Positions 4,966-49,437 of a DNA stretch of 52,567 nucleotides are shown here, one piece after another (within the stretch, counting starts at the first letter, position 1; every line of letters starts with the position of its first letter). The stretch is from the IMG/VR virus record IMGVR_UViG_3300044996_000405, positions 1 to 52,567 of that record. One strand, given 5' to 3'. Both the position numbers and the translations under genes were made by a program. The notes under the pieces were generated by a model that was not told the origin of the DNA, searched no databases, and saw only the letters and a list, made by a program, of their open reading frames with translations. The stretch comes from a virus.

Positions 4966-4979
4966 ACTCGAGGTTGTTA

Positions 4980-5540
4980 ATGAGAGAGTCTCATACTCCT
5001 GAAGAGCTTCGTGAATTTCTTCGATATGAAGAGGATACAGGAAAGCTGTTCTGGCGGCTGAGGAACGAGTCTCATTTTGCGGAAGGTAAGTATTCTCCCG
5101 CGCGACTAATGAAGCGATGGAACACTCTGTTTGCAGGGAAAGAAGCCGGTAGCGTTCATACCGATCCTAAGGATGGGTATCAGTTTCACTGTATTCGCTT
5201 AGGCAAGCGACTTTATAAGTCTAGCCGAGTCATTTGGGCCATGAAGAGGGGTGTATGGCCTGATAAAGACATCGACCATAGGGATACCGATTCTTTGAAT
5301 AATAGGTGGGGAAATCTACGGAAGGCAACCAAGTCCGAGAATGCATGGAACAGAAGAACCTTTCGAGGACGCCGCTATAAGGGTGTTCATTTCCATATAC
5401 AGAGACAGAAGTGGATCGCGAGAATTACGGTTCACAGTGTTCAATATCATCTAGGAGTTTTTGATACCCCTGAAGAGGCGTATGTCAAAGTCTGTGAGGC
5501 TCGTCTCAAATATCACGGCGAGTTCGCACGAGCTGCCTGA
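4980..5540 (+). CDS. HNH homing endonuclease with AP2 DNA-binding domain
   Basis: An N-terminal helical segment (ELREFLRYEEDTGKLFWRLR) leads to an HNH core, DKDIDHRDTDSLNNRWGNLR (about residues 95-115): the H, D and N residues of the beta-beta-alpha metal site. An AP2-like domain follows (YKGVHFHIQRQKWIARITV...YHLGVFDTPEEA), then the shared tail KYHGEFARAA. A free-standing selfish endonuclease inserted between capsid and connector genes. ATG 4980 with GAGG at 4970 is chosen over TTG 4974. The last ~75 bases closely match the HNH gene ending at 7841, including a shared 17-base run GCTCGTCTCAAATATCA, so these are recent relatives. Confidence 0.85.
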   Translation: MRESHTPEELREFLRYEEDTGKLFWRLRNESHFAEGKYSPARLMKRWNTLFAGKEAGSVHTDPKDGYQFHCIRLGKRLYKSSRVIWAMKRGVWPDKDIDHRDTDSLNNRWGNLRKATKSENAWNRRTFRGRRYKGVHFHIQRQKWIARITVHSVQYHLGVFDTPEEAYVKVCEARLKYHGEFARAA

Positions 5541-7186: not shown

Positions 7187-7244
7187 TTGTTTGGGCATAA
7201 AACGTAGATTTGTTATTTTACAGCCTCTTAGACAGGAGGCATTG

Positions 7245-7841
7245 ATGGGTTTTGCACGGGTAAATAAAGCTGTTTCAGGTTGTGTAGTTTTTGAACTGAC
7301 AGTCGATATTGTTAGACGATTGCTGGATTATAATCCAGAAACTGGAGAGTTCTATTGGCGTGAGAGAACTCCTGACCTGATTTGGACTGATAAGGAGCGT
7401 GATAGAGAGTGGGAATGTAATCGTTGGAACTCCCGGTGGGCCGGAAAACGTGCGGGCTGTGTGAATAAACCTGACGGTTATAGGTATATTAAGATTTATG
7501 CTAAGAGATATAGCGAACACCGATTAGCGTATTTTATAATGGAAGGAGCATGGCCCCATGATGAGATAGATCATAAGGATGGAGATGTAGGTAATAGTAA
7601 ATGGGAAAATTTGCGACCAGCAACGCGCTTACAGAATGGGTATAATCTTAAACTATCTACATCTAGTACAACTGGTTTTAAGGGTGTTAGTCTTCATAAA
7701 TTATCTGGTAAATATCAGACGTATATTACTGTGAACAGGAAGAGAGTGTATCTTGGCTTATTTGATACGCCAGAAGAAGCTCATGTTAAGGTTTGTGAAG
7801 CTCGTCTCAAATATCATGGTGAATTTGCGCGGGTAGCCTAA
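7245..7841 (+). CDS. HNH homing endonuclease with AP2 domain
   Basis: 198 residues from ATG 7245 with AGGAGG just upstream, preferred over TTG 7191. Order: N-terminal NPETGEFYWRER block, HNH core HDEIDHKDGDVGNSKWENLR, AP2-type domain (FKGVSLHKLSGKYQTYITV...VYLGLFDTPEEA), and C-terminal KYHGEFARVA. The gene is visibly AT-richer than the head genes, a sign of separate origin. Its 3' end is nearly the same as that of the HNH gene at 4980-5540. Its stop codon abuts the next ATG (shared A at 7841), so insertion preserved translational coupling. Confidence 0.85.
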   Translation: MGFARVNKAVSGCVVFELTVDIVRRLLDYNPETGEFYWRERTPDLIWTDKERDREWECNRWNSRWAGKRAGCVNKPDGYRYIKIYAKRYSEHRLAYFIMEGAWPHDEIDHKDGDVGNSKWENLRPATRLQNGYNLKLSTSSTTGFKGVSLHKLSGKYQTYITVNRKRVYLGLFDTPEEAHVKVCEARLKYHGEFARVA

Positions 7842-11523: not shown

Positions 11524-14500
11524 GTGGCAGACGGTAAACTCGAATTAGATGTTCAAGCTGAGGCCAAAGATATTGGTCAGGGTGTAGCGCAACTAACGAG
11601 TCAGTTAGAAGACGCCCTGACGAATGCGGCCCAACTTCGAGATCAATTCGTCAATGCCGCATCGGCTGCCAAGAAAACTGCTGCTGAAGCAAAAGCGCTC
11701 AAGCAAATCCTTGACGGTCTAAGGGCACAGTCCGCAGGCGATAATCGTGCCAAGCAATCGATTCTGGATAGTCCTTCCGTCAATAAGGGCACACTTCGTG
11801 ACGATCAGCTTGTCAACTTCCACGTAGGTGCCCTTAAGAACTCAATTAACACGACCACACAGCAGGTCCAGGCTAGGCTCATTGAAGAGTCCACGAAAGC
11901 CACCGAGCGGCTACTCAAGACAACTGCTGAGGCTATTCAAGCGCGTCTCACTAAGTCTGTTACCGACGTTGAGGCGTTGACTCGTGTCTTCAATGATCCG
12001 AGAGCGGTCAGCGGAGTTATCGGTCAGCGTATTGTGTCGGAAGGGAAGCGCACCGAGCGTTTTGCCGGCATCACGTCGTATGCGGAATTCAAGGCGAGGG
12101 AGGATGCTGATCGCGCGGCGCGTAAGGCTGAACGCGATGCGGAGCGGGCCGACGCGAAGACGCAACGTGAGGCTGATGCGGCCGCTCGGCGCGCTGACCG
12201 TTTAGCGCGCTCGGCGGACGAGCGTCGTCAGCGCGACGTGGATCGTCGGGCTTACCAGTCATCGCCGGAGGGAATCGCCTCCGGCTTCGAGAACCGCATC
12301 CGGATCTTTGCCGATTACGCGACAATCGGCGCCTCCATCCTCGCCATTCGTCAGCTCCTCGGCGCCGTCAATGAGCTGGATGACGGACTGATCCGCTTTC
12401 AGGCGATCACGCAGACGACCAATAAGGAGATGGGGACCTTCAAAGGTCAGCTTCTCGATCTGGGCGCTGCCTCGAGGTTCTCACTGAAGGATCTGACTGA
12501 GGTCGCAACCACCCTCGGCCAGACTGGTCTCTCTGCCGCGGAGGTCACGAAGACACTCCCAACGGTCATCAATTTGGCCACGGCATCAGGCGCGAGCTTG
12601 AAGGAGTCGACCGAGCTTCTGACAACTGCGCTTGGTGCTTACAATCTGGCGGCTGAGAAAACTCCCGACATTGCCAACACGATCACCACGGCGCTCAACA
12701 AGACGCGCCTGACGGTTACGCAGCTTGGACAAGGTCTATCCTACGCGGCGAACATCGCCAATGAGAGTGGTGTCTCGTTTACTGAACTCACATCTGTTCT
12801 TGCGGGACTTGCGCAGGGTGGCATCAAGAGCGGCTCGACCGCCGGCACCGGCACGCGGCAGCTCATTCAAGAGTTGATCTCTCCGACTGACAAACTGAAG
12901 GCCCTGCTAAAGGATCTCGGTATCGGACTGGATCAGATCGATATCCGAGCAAACGGTTTGGTCGGTGTTCTTGAGAATTTGACATCGAAAGGGTTTGGTT
13001 CCGCTGAAGCGCTGAAGTCGCTCGATCTTCGCGCCGCCTCGGCGTTCACGACACTAACGAGCCGTCTTGATCGTGTGAAGGCGCTCCAGGAGTCGATGCA
13101 GCTCTCTAACGCGGCAGTAGAGGGGGCCGCCAAAGCATCTGAGAGCTTAACGGCGATCTGGACGGCTCTAGGGAACAAGACTGTTGCTCTGACCGACCGC
13201 GGACTGGCGCCTATGGTCGAAGCGCTGAAGGCTCTCGGCGTCGGCCTCGGTGTCGTGGCTGACGCCGCCAACAAGCTTGGTCCTGTGCTGCCGATCCTGG
13301 GGACGCTCGGGATCGCGGGCGCGACGGGCGCCGCAGGGGCATGGGCGGTTCAGGTCGCTCGAGGAATCGGCAGCCTCGCGGCGGGCTTCATTTCCGCTAC
13401 GACAGCGGCAGGAGCGTTCAACGTTTCTTTGGCGGCGCTCGCCGCCAATCCGGTTGCTATTGCCCTGGGGATCGCTACGGCGACCGCTGGAGCCATCGCC
13501 GGCGTTGCTGCCTTCTCTGGCCCTTCCCCACTCCAGAAACGCATCGATGACGCCCAGACGTCGCTTAACGACCTCATGTCGCAGCAACAACAGACTGAGA
13601 CGACGCTGAGCACGCTGGACAAGACGATCGGCGATCTCATCGATAAGCAGGACAAGCTGAACAAAGATGGTTTCGCACGTCGAGAAGCGATTCTGCAGGC
13701 GCAGAAAGACTTCTCGAATTTCGGGCTGAACGTACAGCTCAGCACCACAACGGTCTCTGAACTGATTTCGGCGTTGCGCACCCTCCGCGGTGAGCTCTCG
13801 CAGGCTCTCCCCCAGAATTTTGCCATTCAGCGTGAGACGCTGAGAACCAAGTTGGGGCTCGATGTTCAGGCCGCTGATCTGCAGGATGCTGGTGCTGCGG
13901 GGCGTATTTTCAGCGGTATTGGAGAGAGCGGTTTTGCTTTCCGTGGGGACAATGAGAGAGCACTACGTTCCCGACTTGGAAGCGAGTTCGGTCCCCTGCT
14001 CTCCTTCCTCTTCGCAAACTCATCGACGCTGAACTTATCGGATGTTCGCGGCTCTTATGGTTCTTTGGCTGGATCGCTCACATCAGGTTTGAGTGCCCTC
14101 CGAACCTCTGGAGGAGATACGAAGCTTCTCGAGGCGCTTCTTACTGAGTTCAATGCGAAGATCAATCGTCTTTCCGGCTTGCAGGGCACGCAGGTAGACA
14201 TCAATCAAGCGGAACGTAACGGTCGTATTGCGGAGTTGCAGAGCGATCCACGTTTCGGTGGCCTGCAGTCTCGGCTCGAGGGTTCTTTGGGAGTTGCTCA
14301 GAGAGGACTGTCAGAACTTCAGGGCTCAAAGGACTCTCCTGTCGCCAAGCTTGCTCAGTTCGCTCGGCTGCGCGCTGATCTTATTTCTCGTGTTAATGAA
14401 GACGCATATCAGGTCGCTGTTGTCAGTCAGGATTTACAGCGGGAAGGCAAGAACCCTGAGGACGTAAAGATCGCTTTTCAGAAGCTCAAGGATGATTTGG

Positions 14501-18348: not shown

Positions 18349-18643
18349 GAATGAACGAGTTGGTTTCGTTCTTGACGATAACTCGATCGTCGAGCTCGAA
18401 AACATTTGTTCAGACCCCATCAATGGGTTCGAGGTCAAGGGTGATGATCTACTGGCGTATGAGGATCGTGTTGTAGCTACGTGGCATACTCATCCGAGCG
18501 CGAGTTCCAACCCATCAATCGGCGATTTTCAATCATTTATGGCGTATCCGGATTGGCGTCACTATATTTTAGGCCATGATGGGATTTCCGTTTACCGGGT
18601 AGTTAAAGGAAGACTTATCTCGGATGAAGTCGGAACGATTTAG
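18305..18643 (+). CDS. JAMM/MPN+ metallopeptidase tail-tip protein (N-terminal domain of lambda K)
   Basis: 112 residues from ATG 18305. It has a full JAMM signature: WHTHPSASSNPSIGD matches H-x-H-P-x6-S-x-x-D, with an upstream Glu in NERVGF as the likely general base. In lambda-like tails this zinc isopeptidase-type domain is fused in front of NlpC/P60 in gpK. The open frame extends upstream to 18152 but that part lies wholly inside the NlpC gene and does not look like protein. The gene overlaps the next HNH gene by 20 bases. Confidence 0.75.
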   Translation: MDFDANSLLLLNKGENERVGFVLDDNSIVELENICSDPINGFEVKGDDLLAYEDRVVATWHTHPSASSNPSIGDFQSFMAYPDWRHYILGHDGISVYRVVKGRLISDEVGTI

Positions 18644-19136
18644 GCCGCTGCCTCCAAGAGACTGTCTCCTTGCAGTTTTTCATTATGATCCGGAAAGTGG
18701 AAAGTTATTTTGGAAACACAGAATAGATGCTTCTAAATCATGGAACTCTAAGTGGACTGGGAAAGAGGCTGGAAATCTTAATAAGCTAGGATATAGATAC
18801 GTCGCGATAAATAATGTGTTGTGGGCCTCACACCGTATCATTTGGAAGATGGTCTATGGGGATGAACCAGAATTGATAGACCATAAAAATCGAGTAACTG
18901 ATGATAATAGGCTTCATAATTTGAGGAGCTGCTCACGCGCCCAGAATGGAGCTAATCGTATCGCTAATAGTAATAAAGTTGAGAGGTTGCCATTAGGAGT
19001 CACCAGACACTATAGGAAATTTCAAGCTAAATATGGTAGGAAATATATAGGTCTATTTGATACAGTAGTTGAAGCGCAAGAGGCTGTTTATAGAGCTAGG
19101 TATGAACAACATGGTGAGTTCGCGAGGTATGGATGA
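18624..19136 (+). CDS. HNH homing endonuclease with AP2-like C-terminus
   Basis: 170 residues from ATG 18624. N-terminal YDPESGKLFWKHR block, an ASHRIIWKMVYGDEPELIDHKNRVTD region, and the HNH core with DHKNRVTDDNRLHNLR (about residues 90-106). C-terminal AP2-like segment KYIGLFDTVVEAQEAVYRAR ending HGEFARYG. AT-rich compared with flanking tail genes. It is inserted between the JAMM gene and I with overlaps at both ends (20 and 4 bases), so it does not interrupt coupled translation. Confidence 0.8.
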   Translation: MKSERFRPLPPRDCLLAVFHYDPESGKLFWKHRIDASKSWNSKWTGKEAGNLNKLGYRYVAINNVLWASHRIIWKMVYGDEPELIDHKNRVTDDNRLHNLRSCSRAQNGANRIANSNKVERLPLGVTRHYRKFQAKYGRKYIGLFDTVVEAQEAVYRARYEQHGEFARYG

Positions 19137-27036: not shown

Positions 27037-28497
27037 ATGCCGATCGTTTCAGGCCGCGGTCTCCCAGATTGGACACAAGGCGCGGCGACGATCGCCAATG
27101 GTTCTCGCGACGTTACAGTCGCCGGGACGCAGCTCGTCACCACAAACCCCAACACACTCGTTTCAGAATACGTCGCCGGCCGTGGCGACCTTTTTATCGT
27201 CGACGGCATCGACGCGATTCCGATCGTCGAAGTGACGGATGCCACGCATCTGAAACTGGCGCGGCCATGGACGGCAACAGCTCAAACCGGCGTCGCCTAC
27301 GCGATCATCCGCATGTCGATCCCTGCTCAGGGCTCGGTGGCGAAGGCGATCCAGGACTTGCTTAATCAGGGAACAGACACAGATCCGGATCTTAGTCGCA
27401 CGATCGACGACTCAACGGCCCGTCTGAAGATCAAAATATCTGGAGGCGTTCCTTCGATCGCTGTCGGCGCCTCGGGCGCCGTTGATGGGTCTCTGCTGGA
27501 CACAATCCAGATCGACAAGACGACCGGCGTCGTTGATCATCCATTCGGCCTTAGCTCTCCTGGTTACTCAGGAAGGAACCTCTTCATCAACGGTTCTCTC
27601 GATGTGTGGCAACGAGGAACAGCGACGACCGTAGTGGCAGGGACACCTAAATATCTTACGGATCGATGGAGACTGTCGACAAGCGTCGCTTCGATGTCAG
27701 TTTCTCAAGTAGCATCGCCGATAGGGTTTCGTTCCCCAAAAGCGATCCAACTTCAGGCGACGGCTGTAGCTGTAAATGGTAATCTTATTTTAGAGCAACG
27801 GCTTTCCAGTAATGCGGTTCGACATGCTGCAGGACAATCTATCGCCGTCTCGTTTGATCTTGAGGCAGTGCCTAGTGCCGGAACCATATCTGGGCAGCTA
27901 ATTCTACTGACTAATTCTGGGGTAGATTCAAATGATTATACCACAACGGCCGCGACAATTGCATTCACTCCTCCCAGTAGTGCCGGGAAAGTAACGGTTA
28001 TAATCCCATCAGCGAATACAGCCAACCTCATTAATGGGTGTTCGTTCCAGTTATATCTAATGAAAGTTGGTGCTCCGGGTAATATCACCGCCAAGTTCAG
28101 CAGTCTGCAGTGTGAGATCGGTTCGATTGCAACACCCTTTGAATATTGTAGCTACTCCCATATCCTTGCTGATTGTCTGCACTATTATGAGAGGGTCCCT
28201 CTGCAAGGCCTGTCTGGCATTGTCACATCAACCACCCAAGTGAGAGTTGCCGGGCGACTAAGCGTCAAAAGAGCCTCCCCTACTTTGGCGCTAATCGTTA
28301 CATCCTTAAATGGGACGAACGAGTTTTTGATCGGAACATCATTCCCTGCTGCTGCTGCACTGAGTAAAACGGGAGACACTACGACGGTCAATAGTTTTCA
28401 AACATCGCTGGGGGGATTCTCCGGTCTGATTGCAGGTCAACCTGCGTTGGGCGGTTTGACGTCCACGACATTGCTTGAAGCGAGCTCAGAGTTGTAG
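27037..28497 (+). CDS. Long tail fibre protein
   Basis: 486 residues from ATG 27037 (GAGG at 27028). The N-terminal ~100 residues (GLPDWTQGAATIANGSRDVTV...AYAIIRMSIP) resemble attachment domains that dock fibres to the tail. The middle has GRNLFINGSLDVWQRGT, a signature common in phage fibre and tail proteins, followed by a beta-sandwich resembling carbohydrate-binding modules (FSLQCEIGS-type end near residue 365). The C-terminal ~115 residues are variable and likely form the receptor-binding tip. Confidence 0.75.
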   Translation: MPIVSGRGLPDWTQGAATIANGSRDVTVAGTQLVTTNPNTLVSEYVAGRGDLFIVDGIDAIPIVEVTDATHLKLARPWTATAQTGVAYAIIRMSIPAQGSVAKAIQDLLNQGTDTDPDLSRTIDDSTARLKIKISGGVPSIAVGASGAVDGSLLDTIQIDKTTGVVDHPFGLSSPGYSGRNLFINGSLDVWQRGTATTVVAGTPKYLTDRWRLSTSVASMSVSQVASPIGFRSPKAIQLQATAVAVNGNLILEQRLSSNAVRHAAGQSIAVSFDLEAVPSAGTISGQLILLTNSGVDSNDYTTTAATIAFTPPSSAGKVTVIIPSANTANLINGCSFQLYLMKVGAPGNITAKFSSLQCEIGSIATPFEYCSYSHILADCLHYYERVPLQGLSGIVTSTTQVRVAGRLSVKRASPTLALIVTSLNGTNEFLIGTSFPAAAALSKTGDTTTVNSFQTSLGGFSGLIAGQPALGGLTSTTLLEASSEL

Positions 28498-28519
28498 CCC
28501 TACTAAACCTTACTAGCAC

Positions 28520-28539
28520 GCCAAACCATATGGTTTGGC
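28520..28539. promoter_or_regulatory. Perfect 20-bp palindrome (candidate autoregulatory operator)
   Basis: GCCAAACCAT directly followed by its reverse complement ATGGTTTGGC, ending one base before the ATG at 28540. It replaces the place where a ribosome binding site would be. It may bind the product of the next gene as DNA, or fold in the message to block its translation. Confidence 0.6.
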
Positions 28540-28719
28540 ATGGCTCGCAGCGTTTTGATCGCATCTTACGGGACCTTGGAAGACCGCCTGAAGCTGGCGG
28601 CTCTTGCGCGTCTGAAGAAGACGTCGTCCAGCGATTGGCTGTTGCAGCAAATCCGAGCGGCCTACGTCGAAATTTATGGAGACGCGCCCCCTGCACAGGT
28701 TGTGGGGGAACGCAAATGA
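28540..28719 (+). CDS. 59-residue protein, possible ribbon-helix-helix regulator
   Basis: ATG 28540 to TGA 28717-28719, overlapping the next ATG as ATGA. The sequence has one beta-like start (RSVLIASYG), a helix LEDRLKLAALARLKKT, a Ser turn, then helix DWLLQQIRAAYVEIYG: the strand-helix-turn-helix order and length of Arc/MetJ-type DNA-binding proteins. The perfect palindrome immediately upstream fits an autoregulated repressor. No ribosome binding site is visible. It lies between the fibre and lysis genes, so a role in late or lysis timing is possible. Fold assignment is from pattern only. Confidence 0.5.
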   Translation: MARSVLIASYGTLEDRLKLAALARLKKTSSSDWLLQQIRAAYVEIYGDAPPAQVVGERK

Positions 28720-29264
28720 AGCGCGAACTCACCCAAGAGCTTCTCAAACGGCTGCTGGATTACGACCCTGAAACAGGTGTGTTCACTTGGCGTGTTCGGA
28801 CACCTGACCTTTTCCGTAATACGGAAAAACGTCCTGCTGAACGAACCTGTCGGCAATGGAACTTTTGCTGGGCTGGAACCCAAGCAGGTTCGCTTAACAA
28901 TGAAGGGTATGTCCAGATAGAAATTTTTGAACGTTCTTATAAAGCCCACATACTCGCATGGTTCTGGATGACAGGGTTATGGCCCTCAGACAAAATTGAT
29001 CATCGAGACCTTACCCGGAACAATAATAAGTGGGACAATATTCGCAAGGCTACTCATTCCCAAAACAAGGCGAATATGACCGCCCGTTGCGATAATGAGC
29101 TCGGGGTCAAGGGTGTCCGACAGGTAACATCTGGGAACTACATCGCCCGCATTACCGTTCTGGGTAAGCCTATCTATCTTGGCACGTTTACTTCTGCAGA
29201 ACTTGCCTCAGCAAAATACGCCGAGGCAGCGCAGAGGCATTTCGGCGAGTTCGCACGGAGTTAA
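28716..29264 (+). CDS. HNH homing endonuclease with AP2 domain
   Basis: 182 residues from ATG 28716 (GGGGGAA upstream). N-terminal LLDYDPETGVFTWRVRTPDLF; HNH core SDKIDHRDLTRNNNKWDNIR (about residues 90-108); AP2-like GVKGVRQVTSGNYIARITV...IYLGTFTSAELA; ending FGEFARS. The TPDLF/TCRQWNFCWAGTQAGS region resembles the endonuclease at 7245-7841. Unlike the others it is of normal phage GC. It lies between the RHH-like gene and the endolysin. Confidence 0.85.
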   Translation: MKRELTQELLKRLLDYDPETGVFTWRVRTPDLFRNTEKRPAERTCRQWNFCWAGTQAGSLNNEGYVQIEIFERSYKAHILAWFWMTGLWPSDKIDHRDLTRNNNKWDNIRKATHSQNKANMTARCDNELGVKGVRQVTSGNYIARITVLGKPIYLGTFTSAELASAKYAEAAQRHFGEFARS

Positions 29265-29266
29265 TT

Positions 29267-30298
29267 ATGACCTTCTCGATCAAGAACCATCTCCTGTATC
29301 ACAATGGTGAGAAGGTCGACCAACGGCCGACGAAAAAGTTGTCTTCAGGGCGTGTTCTCAAAACACCTATAGGCCTCACCATCCATTATACAGCCTCTCT
29401 AAACGCCGAGAGCGCTATCTCCACTCTGACAACCGGCTCCGCAAAGGCCTCCGCGCATCTTGTCATCGATCGGGACGGGACCGTCTACCAGCTCGCGCCC
29501 CTGAGCGCCGTGTGTTGGCACGCCGGACCATCATCCTGGCGCGGGCGCCAAATGTGCAACGGCTTCATGATCGGCATCGAGCTTGTCAACGCCGGACCGC
29601 TCGTCAAGAAGGGAGATGGCAAGTTCTATTTCGAGGTCGCGAAGTCGCGTGAGTGTCCAAAGAAGGAAGCCGTCGAAGGTCGGCAGAAGCTGTGGCCGTC
29701 AACGACGCACTGGCAGGAGTATCCGCAGGAGCAGCTCGATGCTCTGATCGAGGTCTCTCGCGCGATCCAGCACACCTATAACATCGCCGAGGAGAATATC
29801 GTCGGGCACGAGGACATTGCGCCGACGCGCAAGAGCGACCCCGGTCCCGCATTCCCGATGGCGCACTTCAAATCCGCCGTCATGCACGACCGTTCCGCCG
29901 AGGCGAAACCCCTCGAGGAGCTGACCAATAAAGATCTGCTCGCCATGGGCTCGAAGACGGCGGAAGCGGCGTCAATGCTCAAGAAGGTCGTTGTCACTGG
30001 CGCCGTCACCGGCGCCGGCACGGCTGGCACGGTAGTGTCCGATCCGCAAGGCACGCTGGATCAGGTTCAGACTACCGCGCAAAGCATCTCAGAAACGGCT
30101 GACGCCGTCTCACAGGCTAAGGACAGCGTCTCGGCCCTATCAGACATCGCCGAGTGGTTTGCGTCGCACTGGATCATCATCCTCGGCGCGCTCGCCGCCG
30201 TCGTGTTCCTCGTGACCCTCTACTACGGCTGGAACGCGATCCACACGATCATCGATGAACGCGTCAAGAAGGCGCAAAATGGGGATCTGCCACAGTGA
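29267..30298 (+). CDS. Endolysin: N-acetylmuramoyl-L-alanine amidase with C-terminal membrane segment
   Basis: 343 residues from ATG 29267. An Amidase_2 domain fills residues ~35-200: zinc ligands His in LTIHYTAS and in the VGHEDIAPTRKSDPGPAF block (His and Asp), and a Glu in MIGIELVN. An Ala/Thr-rich linker leads to a strongly hydrophobic segment at ~298-322 (HWIIILGALAAVVFLVTLYYGW) and a basic tail. It cleaves the amide between muramic acid and the stem peptide. A C-terminal transmembrane anchor is unusual for a soluble endolysin and suggests membrane tethering before holin triggering. It overlaps the Rz gene by GTGA. Confidence 0.85.
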   Translation: MTFSIKNHLLYHNGEKVDQRPTKKLSSGRVLKTPIGLTIHYTASLNAESAISTLTTGSAKASAHLVIDRDGTVYQLAPLSAVCWHAGPSSWRGRQMCNGFMIGIELVNAGPLVKKGDGKFYFEVAKSRECPKKEAVEGRQKLWPSTTHWQEYPQEQLDALIEVSRAIQHTYNIAEENIVGHEDIAPTRKSDPGPAFPMAHFKSAVMHDRSAEAKPLEELTNKDLLAMGSKTAEAASMLKKVVVTGAVTGAGTAGTVVSDPQGTLDQVQTTAQSISETADAVSQAKDSVSALSDIAEWFASHWIIILGALAAVVFLVTLYYGWNAIHTIIDERVKKAQNGDLPQ

Positions 30299-30666
30299 GC
30301 TATGTCCTGATCCTGAAGACGATCGCGTCCAAGGTCTTCGAGTTTGCCACCACCTGGATTGGCGCCCTCATCATCGGCCTCAGCATCGGGGCTCTTTGGG
30401 CGCACCTCTCGACCTCCGCCAAATGGCGCGAGACTTACAACGCGCGTGAGCAGCAGATCACTGCCGCCGCGGCGGCGGAACAGGAACGGCAGCTCGACGC
30501 GCTCGAGGCTGCTCGTATTCAGGCGGATCGCACCATCAAGACGCTGCGCGCCGAGAAGACTGACGTTGAGAAGAGGCTTGCCGAAAATGACGCTGACTCG
30601 CACCGCAACGATGCTCGCGCTTGTTTTGACGCTGACGGGATGCGCCGGCTCAACAAAGTACGTTAG
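30295..30666 (+). CDS. Rz: i-spanin (Rz-like)
   Basis: 123 residues from GTG 30295, overlapping the endolysin stop; GGGGA lies upstream. One N-terminal membrane segment (TTWIGALIIGLSIGALWAHL, residues ~19-38), a long Ala/Gln/Glu coiled coil (REQQITAAAAAEQERQLD and onward), and an ACFDADGMRRLNKVR end typical of Rz. It sits in the inner membrane and, with Rz1, fuses inner and outer membranes at lysis. The o-spanin gene begins inside it in another frame, the classic embedded arrangement. Confidence 0.8.
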   Translation: MSYVLILKTIASKVFEFATTWIGALIIGLSIGALWAHLSTSAKWRETYNAREQQITAAAAAEQERQLDALEAARIQADRTIKTLRAEKTDVEKRLAENDADSHRNDARACFDADGMRRLNKVR

Positions 30667-34763: not shown

Positions 34764-35680
34764 TTCTCTCTCAAAGGCTCGGCAACAGTCGCAGGGAGTG
34801 AAAACTCCTCGACGACATCATCAAAAATCTTCTGGAGATTAAAATCGCCGAGCGACACATCAAGATCTTCGCTCTGATCTGTTTGCTCAGCCCGTTCGAC
34901 CTGAAGCTGCAGACAATCAAGCTGCAGATCGAAGATCTCCCCTGGCTTCAGCCGGATTCGAACGCATTTGTCTTTGAAGAGTTCAGGGGTTTGCGTGACC
35001 TCGTCGAGCGAAACGGTGACGTAGAAATAGCCGCAGGGGTCTTCCCCGTGCGAATACGGCTGCAGAGACCCCGGCAGAATGACTTCGACGCCATCTCTGG
35101 AGAACTGCCGCGGTGTGTGATCGTGCCCTGTGTAGGCGTGAGTGACGCCCAGCGCCGCCAACTCCTTGGTGGGGATCAGGTTGAATGGGTCTGACCGTGC
35201 GTCGACGTCATTGTGACCGAAGTAATATGTCAGGCTGGTTTGCGTGACCGACGAAACCAGCTCTGCTGCAGACTTCGTCGGGTGCCATCCAACGAGCAGC
35301 ATGTCATCGACGACGAGAGGTTCCCTCACAACCACGATGTTCTTCATCGAAGCAACAAGCAGCTCAAAAACTTCGAACGCCGAGACCGCTTCAAGATCGC
35401 GAGACAGGTCGTGGTTACCAGCTAGAATAAAGAATCGACAGTCTGGACTTGCGGAAGCTGTTTGTCGGTAGATACGGGCCGCGCGCACGATGGTTTCAAA
35501 TGATACTCGGGAATGATCGAAGAGATCTCCGAGCATGATGTGCTGAGAATAACCTGAAGGATCGAGTTGGGCTTTGAAATCGGCCCAGACAAGCCGCTCG
35601 CGCTCTCCGCGACGGGACAGGGGGACATTCCGGATAAATTCTCGACCAAGATGTGTGTCTCCAAGCAATTTGAAGGTCAA
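34733..35680 (-). CDS. SbcD/Mre11/gp47-like nuclease, metallophosphoesterase subunit
   Basis: 315 residues from TTG 35680, supported by GGAGG seven bases upstream and a TTGA overlap with the preceding stop. Metal motifs in order: LLGDTHLG, IMLGDLFDHSRVS, ILAGNHDLSRD, YFGHNDVDA, YTGHDHTP. The C-terminal ~90 residues lack a known cap. Partner of the SbcC-like ATPase two genes downstream. It is a Mn-dependent nuclease family; direct activity is inferred. Confidence 0.8.
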   Translation of the reverse strand: MTFKLLGDTHLGREFIRNVPLSRRGERERLVWADFKAQLDPSGYSQHIMLGDLFDHSRVSFETIVRAARIYRQTASASPDCRFFILAGNHDLSRDLEAVSAFEVFELLVASMKNIVVVREPLVVDDMLLVGWHPTKSAAELVSSVTQTSLTYYFGHNDVDARSDPFNLIPTKELAALGVTHAYTGHDHTPRQFSRDGVEVILPGSLQPYSHGEDPCGYFYVTVSLDEVTQTPELFKDKCVRIRLKPGEIFDLQLDCLQLQVERAEQTDQSEDLDVSLGDFNLQKIFDDVVEEFSLPATVAEPLREKWATTFRSEG

Positions 35681-36295: not shown

Positions 36296-36819
36296 GCCGC
36301 AAACGCTCCCTTAATTTGGTGGATGCAATCATGAAGGGCGTTATGCTGATCACCCTCGAATGGAATGTCAGCCCAAAAGTCCTTTCGGCTGCGATAGACG
36401 CGACTGCGTCCATCGATAAAGCTGTTGAGGTCTTCACAATTCCAATATGGGATTGGCATCTCGACACCGTATTCGCGCATGTAACTCTGCAGGAACGGCC
36501 ATTCGAAACTGATCGGCTTCGCCCACAACCTCACCGGCCTGGGCGAGCGTGTGCGAGCTAGGAAGTTCGTGAAGGCGAGCAGCACCGTTTTCGGATCTTC
36601 TCCACGGAAAAGGATGTCGTCTAGAACGCCAGCCTTCTGCTGACTCCACCATGTTCTCGTGGATTCATCCCAAAAACGGGAACTGCCAACGGGTAGGAGA
36701 CAACGATCGAACATCTCCTTCGCATCGATCTCCTTCGTTTCAATATTGAAACGAACAGCGGCGAGCTGAACAATATGGTTGTGAGAGGGGTCCGTTCCCG
36801 TCGTCTCAAGATCAACCAT
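36292..36819 (-). CDS. DnaQ-like 3'-5' exonuclease
   Basis: 175 residues from ATG 36819, which overlaps the preceding stop as TGATG; the longer frame reading from 36930 is inside the resolvase gene. Exo I MVDLETTGTDPSHNHIVQL near the start, an Exo II region LWAKPISFEWPFLQSYM, and an Exo III block DQHNALHDCIHQIKG near the end, i.e. a complete DEDDh-type active site. The absence of polymerase domains suggests a stand-alone proofreading, repair or RNase T-like enzyme. A 7-bp hairpin lies just upstream of its start codon. Confidence 0.75.
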   Translation of the reverse strand: MVDLETTGTDPSHNHIVQLAAVRFNIETKEIDAKEMFDRCLLPVGSSRFWDESTRTWWSQQKAGVLDDILFRGEDPKTVLLAFTNFLARTRSPRPVRLWAKPISFEWPFLQSYMREYGVEMPIPYWNCEDLNSFIDGRSRVYRSRKDFWADIPFEGDQHNALHDCIHQIKGAFAA

Positions 36820-40214: not shown

Positions 40215-41290
40215 AACCTCGTCCCTTCATGAAACGCTGTGACGACTGGAAATCGCGGCATGCCATCAGGCGTGAGCGCGAAGTAGCGCACGGTGGCGCT
40301 CGACGGCGTCGGGCTGTGCAGGAGCTGCAAGCAGAAACCCTGGGTCCCACGAATGCCGGCGCCGAACTCGCGGCCATCCTTCAAACGCAGCACGGCGCGC
40401 TTGGCGTATCCCGCCCAGTTGCCCTGCCCCTCCTCGACGCGGATCACGTCAAATTCCTCGTCGAGGAACTCTTTCCTCTTCAACAGCAGCTTCGATCGCT
40501 TCTGTTCGTAGGCGCCGTTCAGGCGAATGATCTGACCCTCGAATCCATCCTGCAGACACCACTCGTAATGATCGTTGAGCAGCCGCTCAGTCGCGCAATG
40601 GAGTGTATGCACCTCTCTGAGGGGACTATTGGGGTCAAGATTGAACGACCTAATCTGTTCGAGACGCTCGCCGAACATGCCATCGCGCGATGGCATGTCA
40701 TAGACATGATACTGGATCAGTGATCGAGCCTTTTCGAAGTCCTCCTCAGACGGCTTCAATTTCTTCACGACTGAGGTAATCGTGTTGAAGTCGTCCTTGA
40801 GCTCGTGGTTATAGAGCTCGCCATCGAGGATCAGCGTCGGGCACCGCTGGAACAGCGGCGCCAACGACTGCTCAATATGGCGACAGGAGACGATCGGCTT
40901 CCCTTGCCGGCTCCACAGCCCGTTCGCCGTTGCGATACAGCGAATGCCATCGAGTTTGGGCTGGCAGTAGATATTCTTCCACCCAGCAACCCACCCTTCG
41001 AACTTGTGCGCGAGCATCGGCTTGACGACACTGTCGCGAGGCCGATCGACGTCGTCGATCGTCGATCGGTAATCGCGATCGAGCTTCTTCTTCTCCTCGG
41101 CCTGCGCCTCGAAAAGGGCCTGCTCTTCGGCAGTGTCCTGGGATTTCGGCTTGCAGGTCGTCCAGCCAGTGGTAAGAAGTTCACCCCCTGGGAGGCCTGA
41201 CAGCGTGCGCCAGCATGGGCCTTGGACTTCATACTGCCAAATGCGCACACGGCCGCTCGCATCTCGTTTATAGATAGGGTTGCTGAGCAT
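40211..41290 (-). CDS. ATP-dependent DNA ligase with N-terminal WGR-like domain
   Basis: 359 residues from ATG 41290. Residues ~1-75 form a WGR-type module (NPIYKRDASGRVRIWQYEV...GLPGGELLTTGWTTC). The adenylyltransferase core follows: motif I YCQPKLDGIRC (adenylated Lys), motif III LILDGELYN, motif IV DGFEGQIIRL, motif V LLLKRKEFLDEE, then an OB-type C-terminus. This seals nicks in DNA. The WGR fusion is found in several phage ligases and is a possible DNA- or NAD-binding module. TGATG overlap with MazG-like gene. Confidence 0.85.
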   Translation of the reverse strand: MLSNPIYKRDASGRVRIWQYEVQGPCWRTLSGLPGGELLTTGWTTCKPKSQDTAEEQALFEAQAEEKKKLDRDYRSTIDDVDRPRDSVVKPMLAHKFEGWVAGWKNIYCQPKLDGIRCIATANGLWSRQGKPIVSCRHIEQSLAPLFQRCPTLILDGELYNHELKDDFNTITSVVKKLKPSEEDFEKARSLIQYHVYDMPSRDGMFGERLEQIRSFNLDPNSPLREVHTLHCATERLLNDHYEWCLQDGFEGQIIRLNGAYEQKRSKLLLKRKEFLDEEFDVIRVEEGQGNWAGYAKRAVLRLKDGREFGAGIRGTQGFCLQLLHSPTPSSATVRYFALTPDGMPRFPVVTAFHEGTRL

Positions 41291-46994: not shown

Positions 46995-48371
46995 CTACAA
47001 ATCCAGAATTTTACGTGTCGGATCAACCTTGTTAGCGTCGCGAGACTTCTTATTGATGAGAGTAGCGATCCGAAAGTCGAGCGAATCCCGGTATTTCATA
47101 ACAGTGAGTCTGAGAGCACTTCTGCGCTTCTCGCGCATGAAGCGCATATACGACTGCACAAATGAACTGTCACGGAAATCTAACGAAGCGTATATTGCGT
47201 GCGAGACCTCTTTATTTGCCGAGAACTGCCAGTTGTGGCCCATATCAGCCACGATAGGGCTCGCAATTATTCCATCGAGATCACCTCTCTCAAATGCCTT
47301 GCTCATCGCATAGGCATCCTTATGGTTCACCTCACCGTTGAGGATATCGAACCTCAAGTTATAGGTTTTGGTTAGTTCAAGTAGCTGGTCCTGCTGCTTC
47401 AGCAGTGACGCGAAGATGACCAACGGGGCTTTATTGACCGCATGATCTTCCAAGTGAAGATCGATCAAGTCGAGCTTCCCAGGACGCTTTCCTGGAATAA
47501 GATCGACCGTCTGTTTAGGGTTGGTAAGATCCGGAAAGGAGTTCGGGTGTTCCATAATCTGCCGACAGCGCGTAAACGCTACCCCAGGTAGGGTTCCATC
47601 GACAAAGAATTTCTCTAACTCTAGAATAGCCTCGTCTTTCAACGTGTCGTAGAGCTCGCGCTGTTGCGGCTCCATATCAACCACTTCCTTGTGGATAACG
47701 ATCTCAGCCTCACCATGAACATCCGCCCAGAGCCGACGTCGTGAGTGGCGATCGAGAAGTTTGCGCAGGTGATCAAGGTTGTCGTAATCGATAACCTTCC
47801 CGGTCCACATATCGATCACATGATGAAATGCCTTGAATTGATCATAGTTCCCGTAATAGCGAGGTTCGATAATCGCGAGCGCCGAATAGCAAGTGTCCGG
47901 TTTGCCGTTGTAAAGCGTGCCAGTCATCGGCAGAAAATACTTGCCGTGAGTCCACATAAACTGATTCATGGCAGCAGTCTGAGCTGACGTCACCCCCCCA
48001 AACAGTTTATGATACTCATCAATATGAAGAGCGGTGACATAATCCGGCAGCTTCTGCCACGACAGCCGAAACCGCGCGGCGGTCATAAGAAAAAGCCTCG
48101 CCGGGGGGCGTATATCGGCCTCTTTCTCAACGATAATCACATCGCCTTTATCCCAAAGGCCAAACTTTAGCGCCTCATCCCGGTTCTTCCCCAGCAGCTT
48201 GTCTGGCATCACCCAAACAGTGCCAGTCTGATACTCATTCCAAAGATGGCGCTGAAGAACGCACACCGGCGGGGTCTTTCCAGTTCCGGGTTCCGATAGA
48301 AAAAGCGCTCTGGGGTTCTGCAGGAAGTAAGCGAGGTCCTCGATCTGATCCTGTCGAAGTTGAAATGTCAT
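46995..48371 (-). CDS. SNF2/SF2 family helicase
   Basis: 458 residues from ATG 48371 (ATGA overlap). Motif I FLSEPGTGKTPP, motif II ALHIDEYHKLFGG (DEYH in place of DEAD/DEAH), motif III PMTGTLYNG, a C-terminal half with LVIFASLLKQQDQLLEL, FDILNGEVNHKDA, and a motif VI-like FVQSYMRFMREKRRS. This is a DNA-dependent ATPase of the phage SNF2-like type, probably for branch migration or replication restart. I see no DnaB-type or DnaA-type loader in the window. Confidence 0.8.
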   Translation of the reverse strand: MTFQLRQDQIEDLAYFLQNPRALFLSEPGTGKTPPVCVLQRHLWNEYQTGTVWVMPDKLLGKNRDEALKFGLWDKGDVIIVEKEADIRPPARLFLMTAARFRLSWQKLPDYVTALHIDEYHKLFGGVTSAQTAAMNQFMWTHGKYFLPMTGTLYNGKPDTCYSALAIIEPRYYGNYDQFKAFHHVIDMWTGKVIDYDNLDHLRKLLDRHSRRRLWADVHGEAEIVIHKEVVDMEPQQRELYDTLKDEAILELEKFFVDGTLPGVAFTRCRQIMEHPNSFPDLTNPKQTVDLIPGKRPGKLDLIDLHLEDHAVNKAPLVIFASLLKQQDQLLELTKTYNLRFDILNGEVNHKDAYAMSKAFERGDLDGIIASPIVADMGHNWQFSANKEVSHAIYASLDFRDSSFVQSYMRFMREKRRSALRLTVMKYRDSLDFRIATLINKKSRDANKVDPTRKILDL

Positions 48372-48886
48372 TTCAGCAATCCAAGACTACGATTAGTTAT
48401 AGCAGATGACCCCAAATATTTAATCGCAAGCTCGTCATAAACCTGTGCGGCTTTCTCTGCTATCGAATAACAACCCCCATAAATAAGTTTTGACCCTTTG
48501 CAAACATATACACGATACTTTCCGTTAGGTTGTTTAGTGACCCCCCTGTATCCACTTTTACCTACAGGACGTCTCTGCCGCGCCTCCCAATCCCGAACTG
48601 TCTCCTCCATAAGATTTATAATCTTAAAATTACAAGGATCGCCATCCTTTTGAATTACACGTCTACACGGCCATTTACCGTAAAATACAGCAAAACATAA
48701 CTCCTTACCCAGAATCGTAGTATCATTTATATTAAAAACATACTGATTATCTCGTTTTCTTAAATACCCATTAGCGACAGATCCTGCTGGGTATTTAGGA
48801 CTGCGGTAAATCTTCCACCTCAATACCCCTGTTTCAGGATCATAATCTAGGCGTTCCCGAAGATGTTCGATTGATATACGGTTCAC
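48368..48886 (-). CDS. AP2/HNH family endonuclease with altered active site
   Basis: 172 residues from GTG 48886, which overlaps the upstream stop as GTGA and has GAGG 7 bases before. N-terminal LDYDPETGVLRWKIYRS block; core VIQKDGDPCNFKIINLMEET where the HNH is reduced to Q-K-D-G-D, so the catalytic His is missing. C-terminal AP2 domain: GYRGVTKQPNGKYRVYV...IYGGCYSIAEKAAQVYDELA. AT-rich relative to neighbours. Probably a decayed or divergent homing endonuclease, inserted before the helicase. Confidence 0.75.
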   Translation of the reverse strand: MNRISIEHLRERLDYDPETGVLRWKIYRSPKYPAGSVANGYLRKRDNQYVFNINDTTILGKELCFAVFYGKWPCRRVIQKDGDPCNFKIINLMEETVRDWEARQRRPVGKSGYRGVTKQPNGKYRVYVCKGSKLIYGGCYSIAEKAAQVYDELAIKYLGSSAITNRSLGLLK

Positions 48887-49437
48887 TTCCGAGCCTCTTC
48901 GACTGTGCGTTGCACGAAATCCCACAACACCGCGGCGCCCGCCGCACGGGGATCTCCCTCAATCTCAGGGATAGACGCAGCCTCGGCCCCCGCCGGCTGC
49001 AGGTCCCCACAGAAAATGAGCGTTCGAACACGGGGGAGCTCGAGCAGCCGCGCGATCGAGCGCAGATGCGACCCCTCATAAGCGGTGAGGATCAGCGGTG
49101 CGATATTGGTTAGATGGAGCTCCGATAGCAGATCTTTGACACTCCAAGCCCAAAGCGGGCGAATGACTCCGGTCCCCTGCGTCGGGGCACAGAGCTGCGC
49201 CGCTCGGCGCACGTCGCCCCTTACCCAATAGGCACCCCCATCAGGAACAGGGTCGAAGGGACTGGGGGCGTGGCCCACCTCCCCAGCCTTGGGCTCGATC
49301 CGGTGCGGACATCGAGCGCGTTTCGGGCTCGAGTAGGGGCTGGGGAGCCCGGCGAGGCCCGGTGTCAAACACCGAGCCTCATCCTGCTGATGCAGGAACA
49401 GAAGATCCCCATCAATGTGCAGGCCAAAGCGTTCCAT
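48883..49437 (-). CDS. Protein of unknown function, possible TOPRIM-type fragment
   Basis: 184 residues from ATG 49437. N-terminal HIDGDLLFLHQQDEA; a Pro/Gly/Arg-rich middle; C-terminal LILTAYEGSHLRSIARLLE and VRTLIFCGDLQPAGAEAA, which loosely resemble the E-G and D-x-D/G-x-x-A motifs of phage TOPRIM primase domains. The full set of acidic residues is not clear, so this is a weak suggestion. It precedes the helicase block, where a primase or replication initiator would make sense. Otherwise unassigned. Confidence 0.4.
   Translation of the reverse strand: MERFGLHIDGDLLFLHQQDEARCLTPGLAGLPSPYSSPKRARCPHRIEPKAGEVGHAPSPFDPVPDGGAYWVRGDVRRAAQLCAPTQGTGVIRPLWAWSVKDLLSELHLTNIAPLILTAYEGSHLRSIARLLELPRVRTLIFCGDLQPAGAEAASIPEIEGDPRAAGAAVLWDFVQRTVEEARK

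Follow-up and report, generated by a model that had tools for sequence, protein, structure and literature searches.

In phage T4, hairpins at the starts of genes e, soc, 49, and I-TevI hold back translation on mRNA initiated upstream, with a reduction of about 100-fold in the case of gene e, and the genes held in this way are freed when late promoters start transcription inside the structure (PMC3014915). Homing endonuclease genes of T4-type phages have starts that are either masked by a hairpin or overlap the upstream gene (PMC2988022), and in Bacillus the sigG gene is damped by a hairpin at its start (PMC5942855). The locus described here lies in a viral contig of 52,567 nucleotides (IMG/VR record IMGVR_UViG_3300044996_000405), the whole of which we call the window. 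It resembles the T4 genes e, soc, 49, and I-TevI in that a predicted hairpin sits at a gene start on phage mRNA, in that the gene lies near or within the late/lysis programme, and in that read-through transcripts would be expected to carry the hairpin. It differs from them in that the gene is of the ribbon-helix-helix (RHH) type, in that the Shine-Dalgarno sequence is absent so that none is masked, in that the stem abuts the ATG, and in that no releasing late promoter is known. With the free-standing T4-type homing endonuclease genes mobE, segB, segF, mobA, and mobC, it shares the division between hairpin-masked and overlapping starts, although the family divided in this way here is of the RHH type and not an endonuclease, and the HNH endonuclease gene that lies downstream is not the hairpin's neighbour.

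A second comparison is with small DNA-binding repressors. Arc and the RHH antitoxins repress in an operator-bound, autoregulatory fashion. Like Arc and Mnt of phage P22, the protein considered here is a phage RHH-type protein of 50 to 60 amino acids, and its predicted helices superpose on those of Arc at about 1.2 Å. Unlike in Arc and Mnt, the DNA-reading residues are replaced, a conserved operator is absent, and the gene lies at the tail/lysis junction instead of in an immunity region. A literature search found no paper on a phage whose lysis cassette contains an RHH or Arc-like gene.

Gene order and palindrome at the tail/lysis junction

A preliminary description of this stretch reported a perfect 20-bp palindrome beside the ATG of a 59-residue gene, and both elements are present between the tail fibre and lysis genes (Table 1). 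The tail fibre stop lies 42 nt ahead of the RHH ATG, and the palindrome, GCCAAACCATATGGTTTGGC, begins 22 nt past that stop and ends with its final base adjoining the ATG at 28540. If one mismatch is allowed, the symmetry extends over 28517-28542 and spans the ATG. The absence of a Shine-Dalgarno sequence and the ATGA overlap between the RHH stop and the HNH start at 28716, both remarked on in the same description, were likewise found. The gene is easily missed, as that description also supposed: the HNH frame is open upstream to 28530, giving a 244-aa open reading frame (ORF) that covers the 59-aa gene, so a gene caller could pick that ORF and hide the shorter one. Judged by conservation, the 59-aa frame is the real one.

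Table 1. Features of the tail/lysis junction in the window
Feature	Coordinates	Strand	Basis or remark
Tail fibre gene	27037..28497	+	ORF; PHROG tail fibre 5.5e-25
Perfect palindrome	28520..28539	.	As RNA, predicted stem of 8 bp (AUAU loop; -13.5 kcal/mol) directly before the start codon
59-aa RHH-type gene	28540..28719	+	Without Shine-Dalgarno; dN/dS, 19-member family, fold and profile matches
HNH endonuclease gene	28716..29264	+	Pfam HNH_3 3.7e-9; PHROG 99 1.5e-57
Endolysin (amidase), C-terminal hydrophobic segment	29267..30298	+	Pfam Amidase_2 1.3e-28
Probable Rz-like spanin	30295..30666	+	Weak PHROG Rz-like matches

The most likely reading of the HNH gene is that it was inserted between its RHH and endolysin neighbours and lies outside the ancestral arrangement, because it is absent at this point in the relatives L007, L125, and Caulobacter phage Seuss and because four homologues of it lie elsewhere in the window. 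The five mutually similar HNH endonuclease genes (4974-5540, 7191-7841, 18624-19136, 28716-29264, and 48368-48925; 25-47% identity) are scattered across the one phage and appear to reflect proliferation of a single mobile family. Within the HNH gene of the present locus, a 9-bp inverted repeat (TTTTCCGTA/TACGGAAAA) occurs at 28810-28828, with its arms one base apart.

The preliminary description had proposed a search for the palindrome elsewhere in the genome; GCCAAACCATATGGTTTGGC occurs once in the window, even when 3 mismatches are tolerated, and once in a 78.7-kb sister contig. Simulation with the window's dinucleotide content gave an expectation of about 0.017 perfect 20-bp palindromes per window. 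The window has three perfect palindromes of at least 20 bp, and the one at the RHH gene is rare, yet not unique as a class. The other two, of 22 bp (36734-36755) and 24 bp (40675-40698), each lie within a minus-strand gene, their simulated expectation also being far below 1, and suggest that long palindromes can appear in this DNA with no evident function. To that extent they favour regarding the palindrome beside the RHH gene as a functionless accident, an explanation that we nevertheless consider highly improbable, given that unrelated hairpins recur at the same start codon in those relatives whose RHH gene is detached from the gene upstream (see below).

A conserved small protein with a predicted RHH fold

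The 59-codon gene is real, judging from its comparison with the L007 orthologue (63% identical), in which substitutions fall mostly in third positions and dN (0.34) is well below dS (1.86), giving a dN/dS of about 0.18. Searches with the protein alone reached only the L007 contig and gp41 of Seuss (46%, tblastn), genome contigs yielded no further close relatives, and DNA similarity to phage records was nil. Because direct protein searches had stalled, the family was opened by synteny: alignment of the tail J protein of this phage and of Seuss gave 80 loci, and the sequence that follows J was then scanned with a profile built from the three proteins already known. Most of the loci that matched J strongly and had sufficient sequence beyond it carry a relative downstream of that gene in the same orientation. 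The aligned family comprises 19 distinct, divergent members at the tail/lysis junction, Seuss among them, in which M1, I7, G11, D15, R16, L19, S31, and R39 are invariant. The virus Rctr16k also gave a family match, and no member was found in the stretch searched in the more distant J-containing phages L338C, Achromobacter 2-1, and Lumi. No Pfam or PHROG family specific to these proteins was found. In the members whose neighbours were inspected, the genes that come next resemble those for holin, hemolysin/XhlA, endolysin, or spanin or are without a clear match, and the position between tail and lysis genes is conserved across the family.

Seuss gp41 (AKU43567) is an orthologue in the same place, flanked by tail and holin genes, but differs from the gene in the window in having neither a perfect palindrome nor the HNH insertion and in being annotated as a hypothetical protein 10 codons longer. 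Its annotated GTG start (KT001914, 35401-35613) is probably placed 10 codons early, the ATG at 35431 being where the family alignment begins.

Structure prediction and profile matches make an RHH-type fold for the 59-aa protein very probable. The AlphaFold2 monomer has helices at residues 13-25 and 30-46, predicted with moderate confidence, whereas the N-terminus is uncertain and a strand is not resolved, as expected if the strand forms only in the dimer. Among many unrelated matches, this model also fits AtaR and Arc at about 1 Å, and the PDB matches of the L007 orthologue model are mostly to RHH proteins (Arc, PutA, AtaR, ParD, VapB12, and KacTA), no Foldseek E-value being significant in either case. 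Among family members, one matches the RHH_1 profile (4.1e-5), one an Arc-like PHROG (0.0011), and 10 of the 19 a NikA-like profile, the last of these weakly. Two modelled helices together with the PDB and profile matches fit the strand-helix-helix plan of the RHH superfamily, and the suggestion that the gene encodes a possible RHH protein, which a prediction without such a fold was to have refuted, is supported. Pairwise profile comparison with Arc and Mnt detected no sequence relation and was set aside as too weak to serve as evidence of kinship.

The palindrome as a candidate operator

The preliminary description suggested, by analogy with Arc and MetJ, that the palindrome is the protein's own operator. 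If so, RHH dimers would bind it and repress a promoter in the 42-nt gap, thereby repressing the RHH gene together with the HNH and lysis genes that follow. The RHH-type fold and the perfect dyad adjoining the gene both accord with such a role, as does the confinement of inverted repeats to members with a gap able to hold a promoter. In L125, the 347 nt upstream contain no called gene on the same strand, and a transcription unit may therefore begin with the RHH gene there. Moreover, the strand residues of L007 differ from those of the window protein at several positions, and operators could therefore have diverged along with the protein.

The distribution and sequence of the repeats argue the other way. 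Most family members lack a palindrome, and where inverted repeats do occur, in the window, L007, and L125, their sequences are unrelated and have no common core. The spacer is 0 in the window, 6 nt in L007, whose repeat is perfect (11+11 bp), and 9 nt in L125, whose repeat is long and imperfect. The protein itself also departs from Arc and MetJ, which carry polar residues at alternate strand positions. The Arc DNA-reading residues Q9, N11, and R13 align with G6, I8, and Y10 in the family and with L6, A8, and Y10 in the window, in a register inferred from helix alignment and helix start, so that most members have non-polar residues there; the neighbouring register is largely non-polar too. A second site is absent from the window (up to 3 mismatches) and from the sister contig, and the gap contains no detectable sigma-70-like promoter. 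The preliminary description had named retention of the palindrome in relatives that lack the gene as the result that would count against it; what is seen is the reverse, relatives that keep the gene and not the palindrome. We regard an operator as unlikely, though it remains a substantial alternative to a role in the RNA.

Predicted hairpins in the start region of detached family members

The distance from the RHH start to the upstream gene splits the 19 members into 14 at -8 to +3 and 5 at 42 nt or more. A start-region hairpin with a z-score near or below -2 was found in all five detached members (window, -2.1; L007, -5.5; Seuss, -2.0; L128, -2.1; L125, -5.4) and in 1 of the 14 coupled ones. 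As a control, 76 other detached gene starts were called by a simple ORF rule in the same phages; 7 of these reach -2 and none reaches -4. The difference holds by the Mann-Whitney test at three window sizes (p, 0.0006 to 0.0025), values that serve only as guides since the members share ancestry and were sorted into groups post hoc. The signal is uneven: at some window sizes it is weaker for Seuss (-0.5 to -2.1) and for the locus studied here, where the z-score at 50 nt is no stronger than about -2 and the ATG is for the most part left unpaired. Although sequence and loop vary from one stem to another, the stems are anchored to the start codon, the 3' arm ending at -1 in the window, +5 in L007, and +12 in L125. 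The ATG lies within the stem in both L007 and L125, and the L125 stem contains G-U pairs. The strongest case in the family is that of L125, where a 15-bp RNA stem with a 9-nt loop (13982-14016) lies over the RHH start codon and first codons. In the window, as in T4 gene e, a stable stem would occlude the start region. An Rfam search returned nothing relevant, and comparing how the two strands fold does not tell an RNA hairpin apart from a DNA palindrome.

Hairpins between operons often end, process, or stabilise mRNA. The present hairpin, lying so soon after the tail fibre stop (22 nt), might act on the tail mRNA in one of these ways, as a terminator, an RNase III site, or a 3'-end shield, and be unrelated to the RHH start. 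An intrinsic terminator was rejected, as the T-run is missing after the hairpin, which the terminator scan does not list. More generally, the stem in the relatives is anchored to the RHH start and not to the upstream stop, and it covers the start codon in L007 and L125, which makes a role confined to the tail mRNA improbable. Control of the HNH gene was rejected as the main role of the hairpin, since L007 and L125 have a hairpin without that gene.

Overall, we hold with about even confidence that the palindrome is more plausibly a cis-acting RNA hairpin, limiting or timing translation of the RHH gene, than a DNA site bound by the protein. Most relatives have a start codon that overlaps the gene upstream or adjoins it, an arrangement that would provide translational coupling; in the detached members, this phage included, a cis RNA hairpin is predicted to abut or cover the start region instead. 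On transcripts reading through from the tail genes, the palindrome would fold into a hairpin whose stem (-13.5 kcal/mol, positions -20 to -1) would fill most of the ribosome landing site and keep ribosomes off an ATG that lacks a Shine-Dalgarno sequence. Release might come from a transcript that starts inside or after the hairpin, from processing, or only rarely; the scan of the 42-nt gap for sigma-70-like sites, which may not be the phage's late promoter type, found no promoter that would provide it. The gene, its family, the fold match, and the coupled/hairpin split are computed results. From the precedents of the T4 hairpins, the hairpin/overlap split of the homing endonucleases, and Bacillus sigG, we infer that the RHH gene is translated less when the hairpin is present. 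Against this reading, a perfect palindrome exceeds what a hairpin needs, and the Seuss case is weak, with an annotated GTG start that lies 30 nt upstream.

Two further suggestions of the preliminary description, that the palindrome may act on translation and that the locus may hold a timing switch for lysis, stand in part. The start-anchored hairpins of the detached members support the former and make such action plausible; as to the latter, the tail/lysis position is conserved, and a role in lysis timing is suggested by position only. A bolder proposal, which we think quite improbable, is that the proteins of the RHH family no longer read DNA in the canonical way and work at the level of RNA near lysis, that coupling or a start hairpin always gates their synthesis at the step of translation, and that the protein perhaps binds the hairpin itself.

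A palindrome beside an RHH gene is thus insufficient for calling an autorepressor. The analysis defines an unnamed family of small proteins at a fixed place beside the lysis genes of Seuss-like phages, and its coupled and putatively hairpin-gated relatives form a natural set for testing the control of what may be a late regulator.
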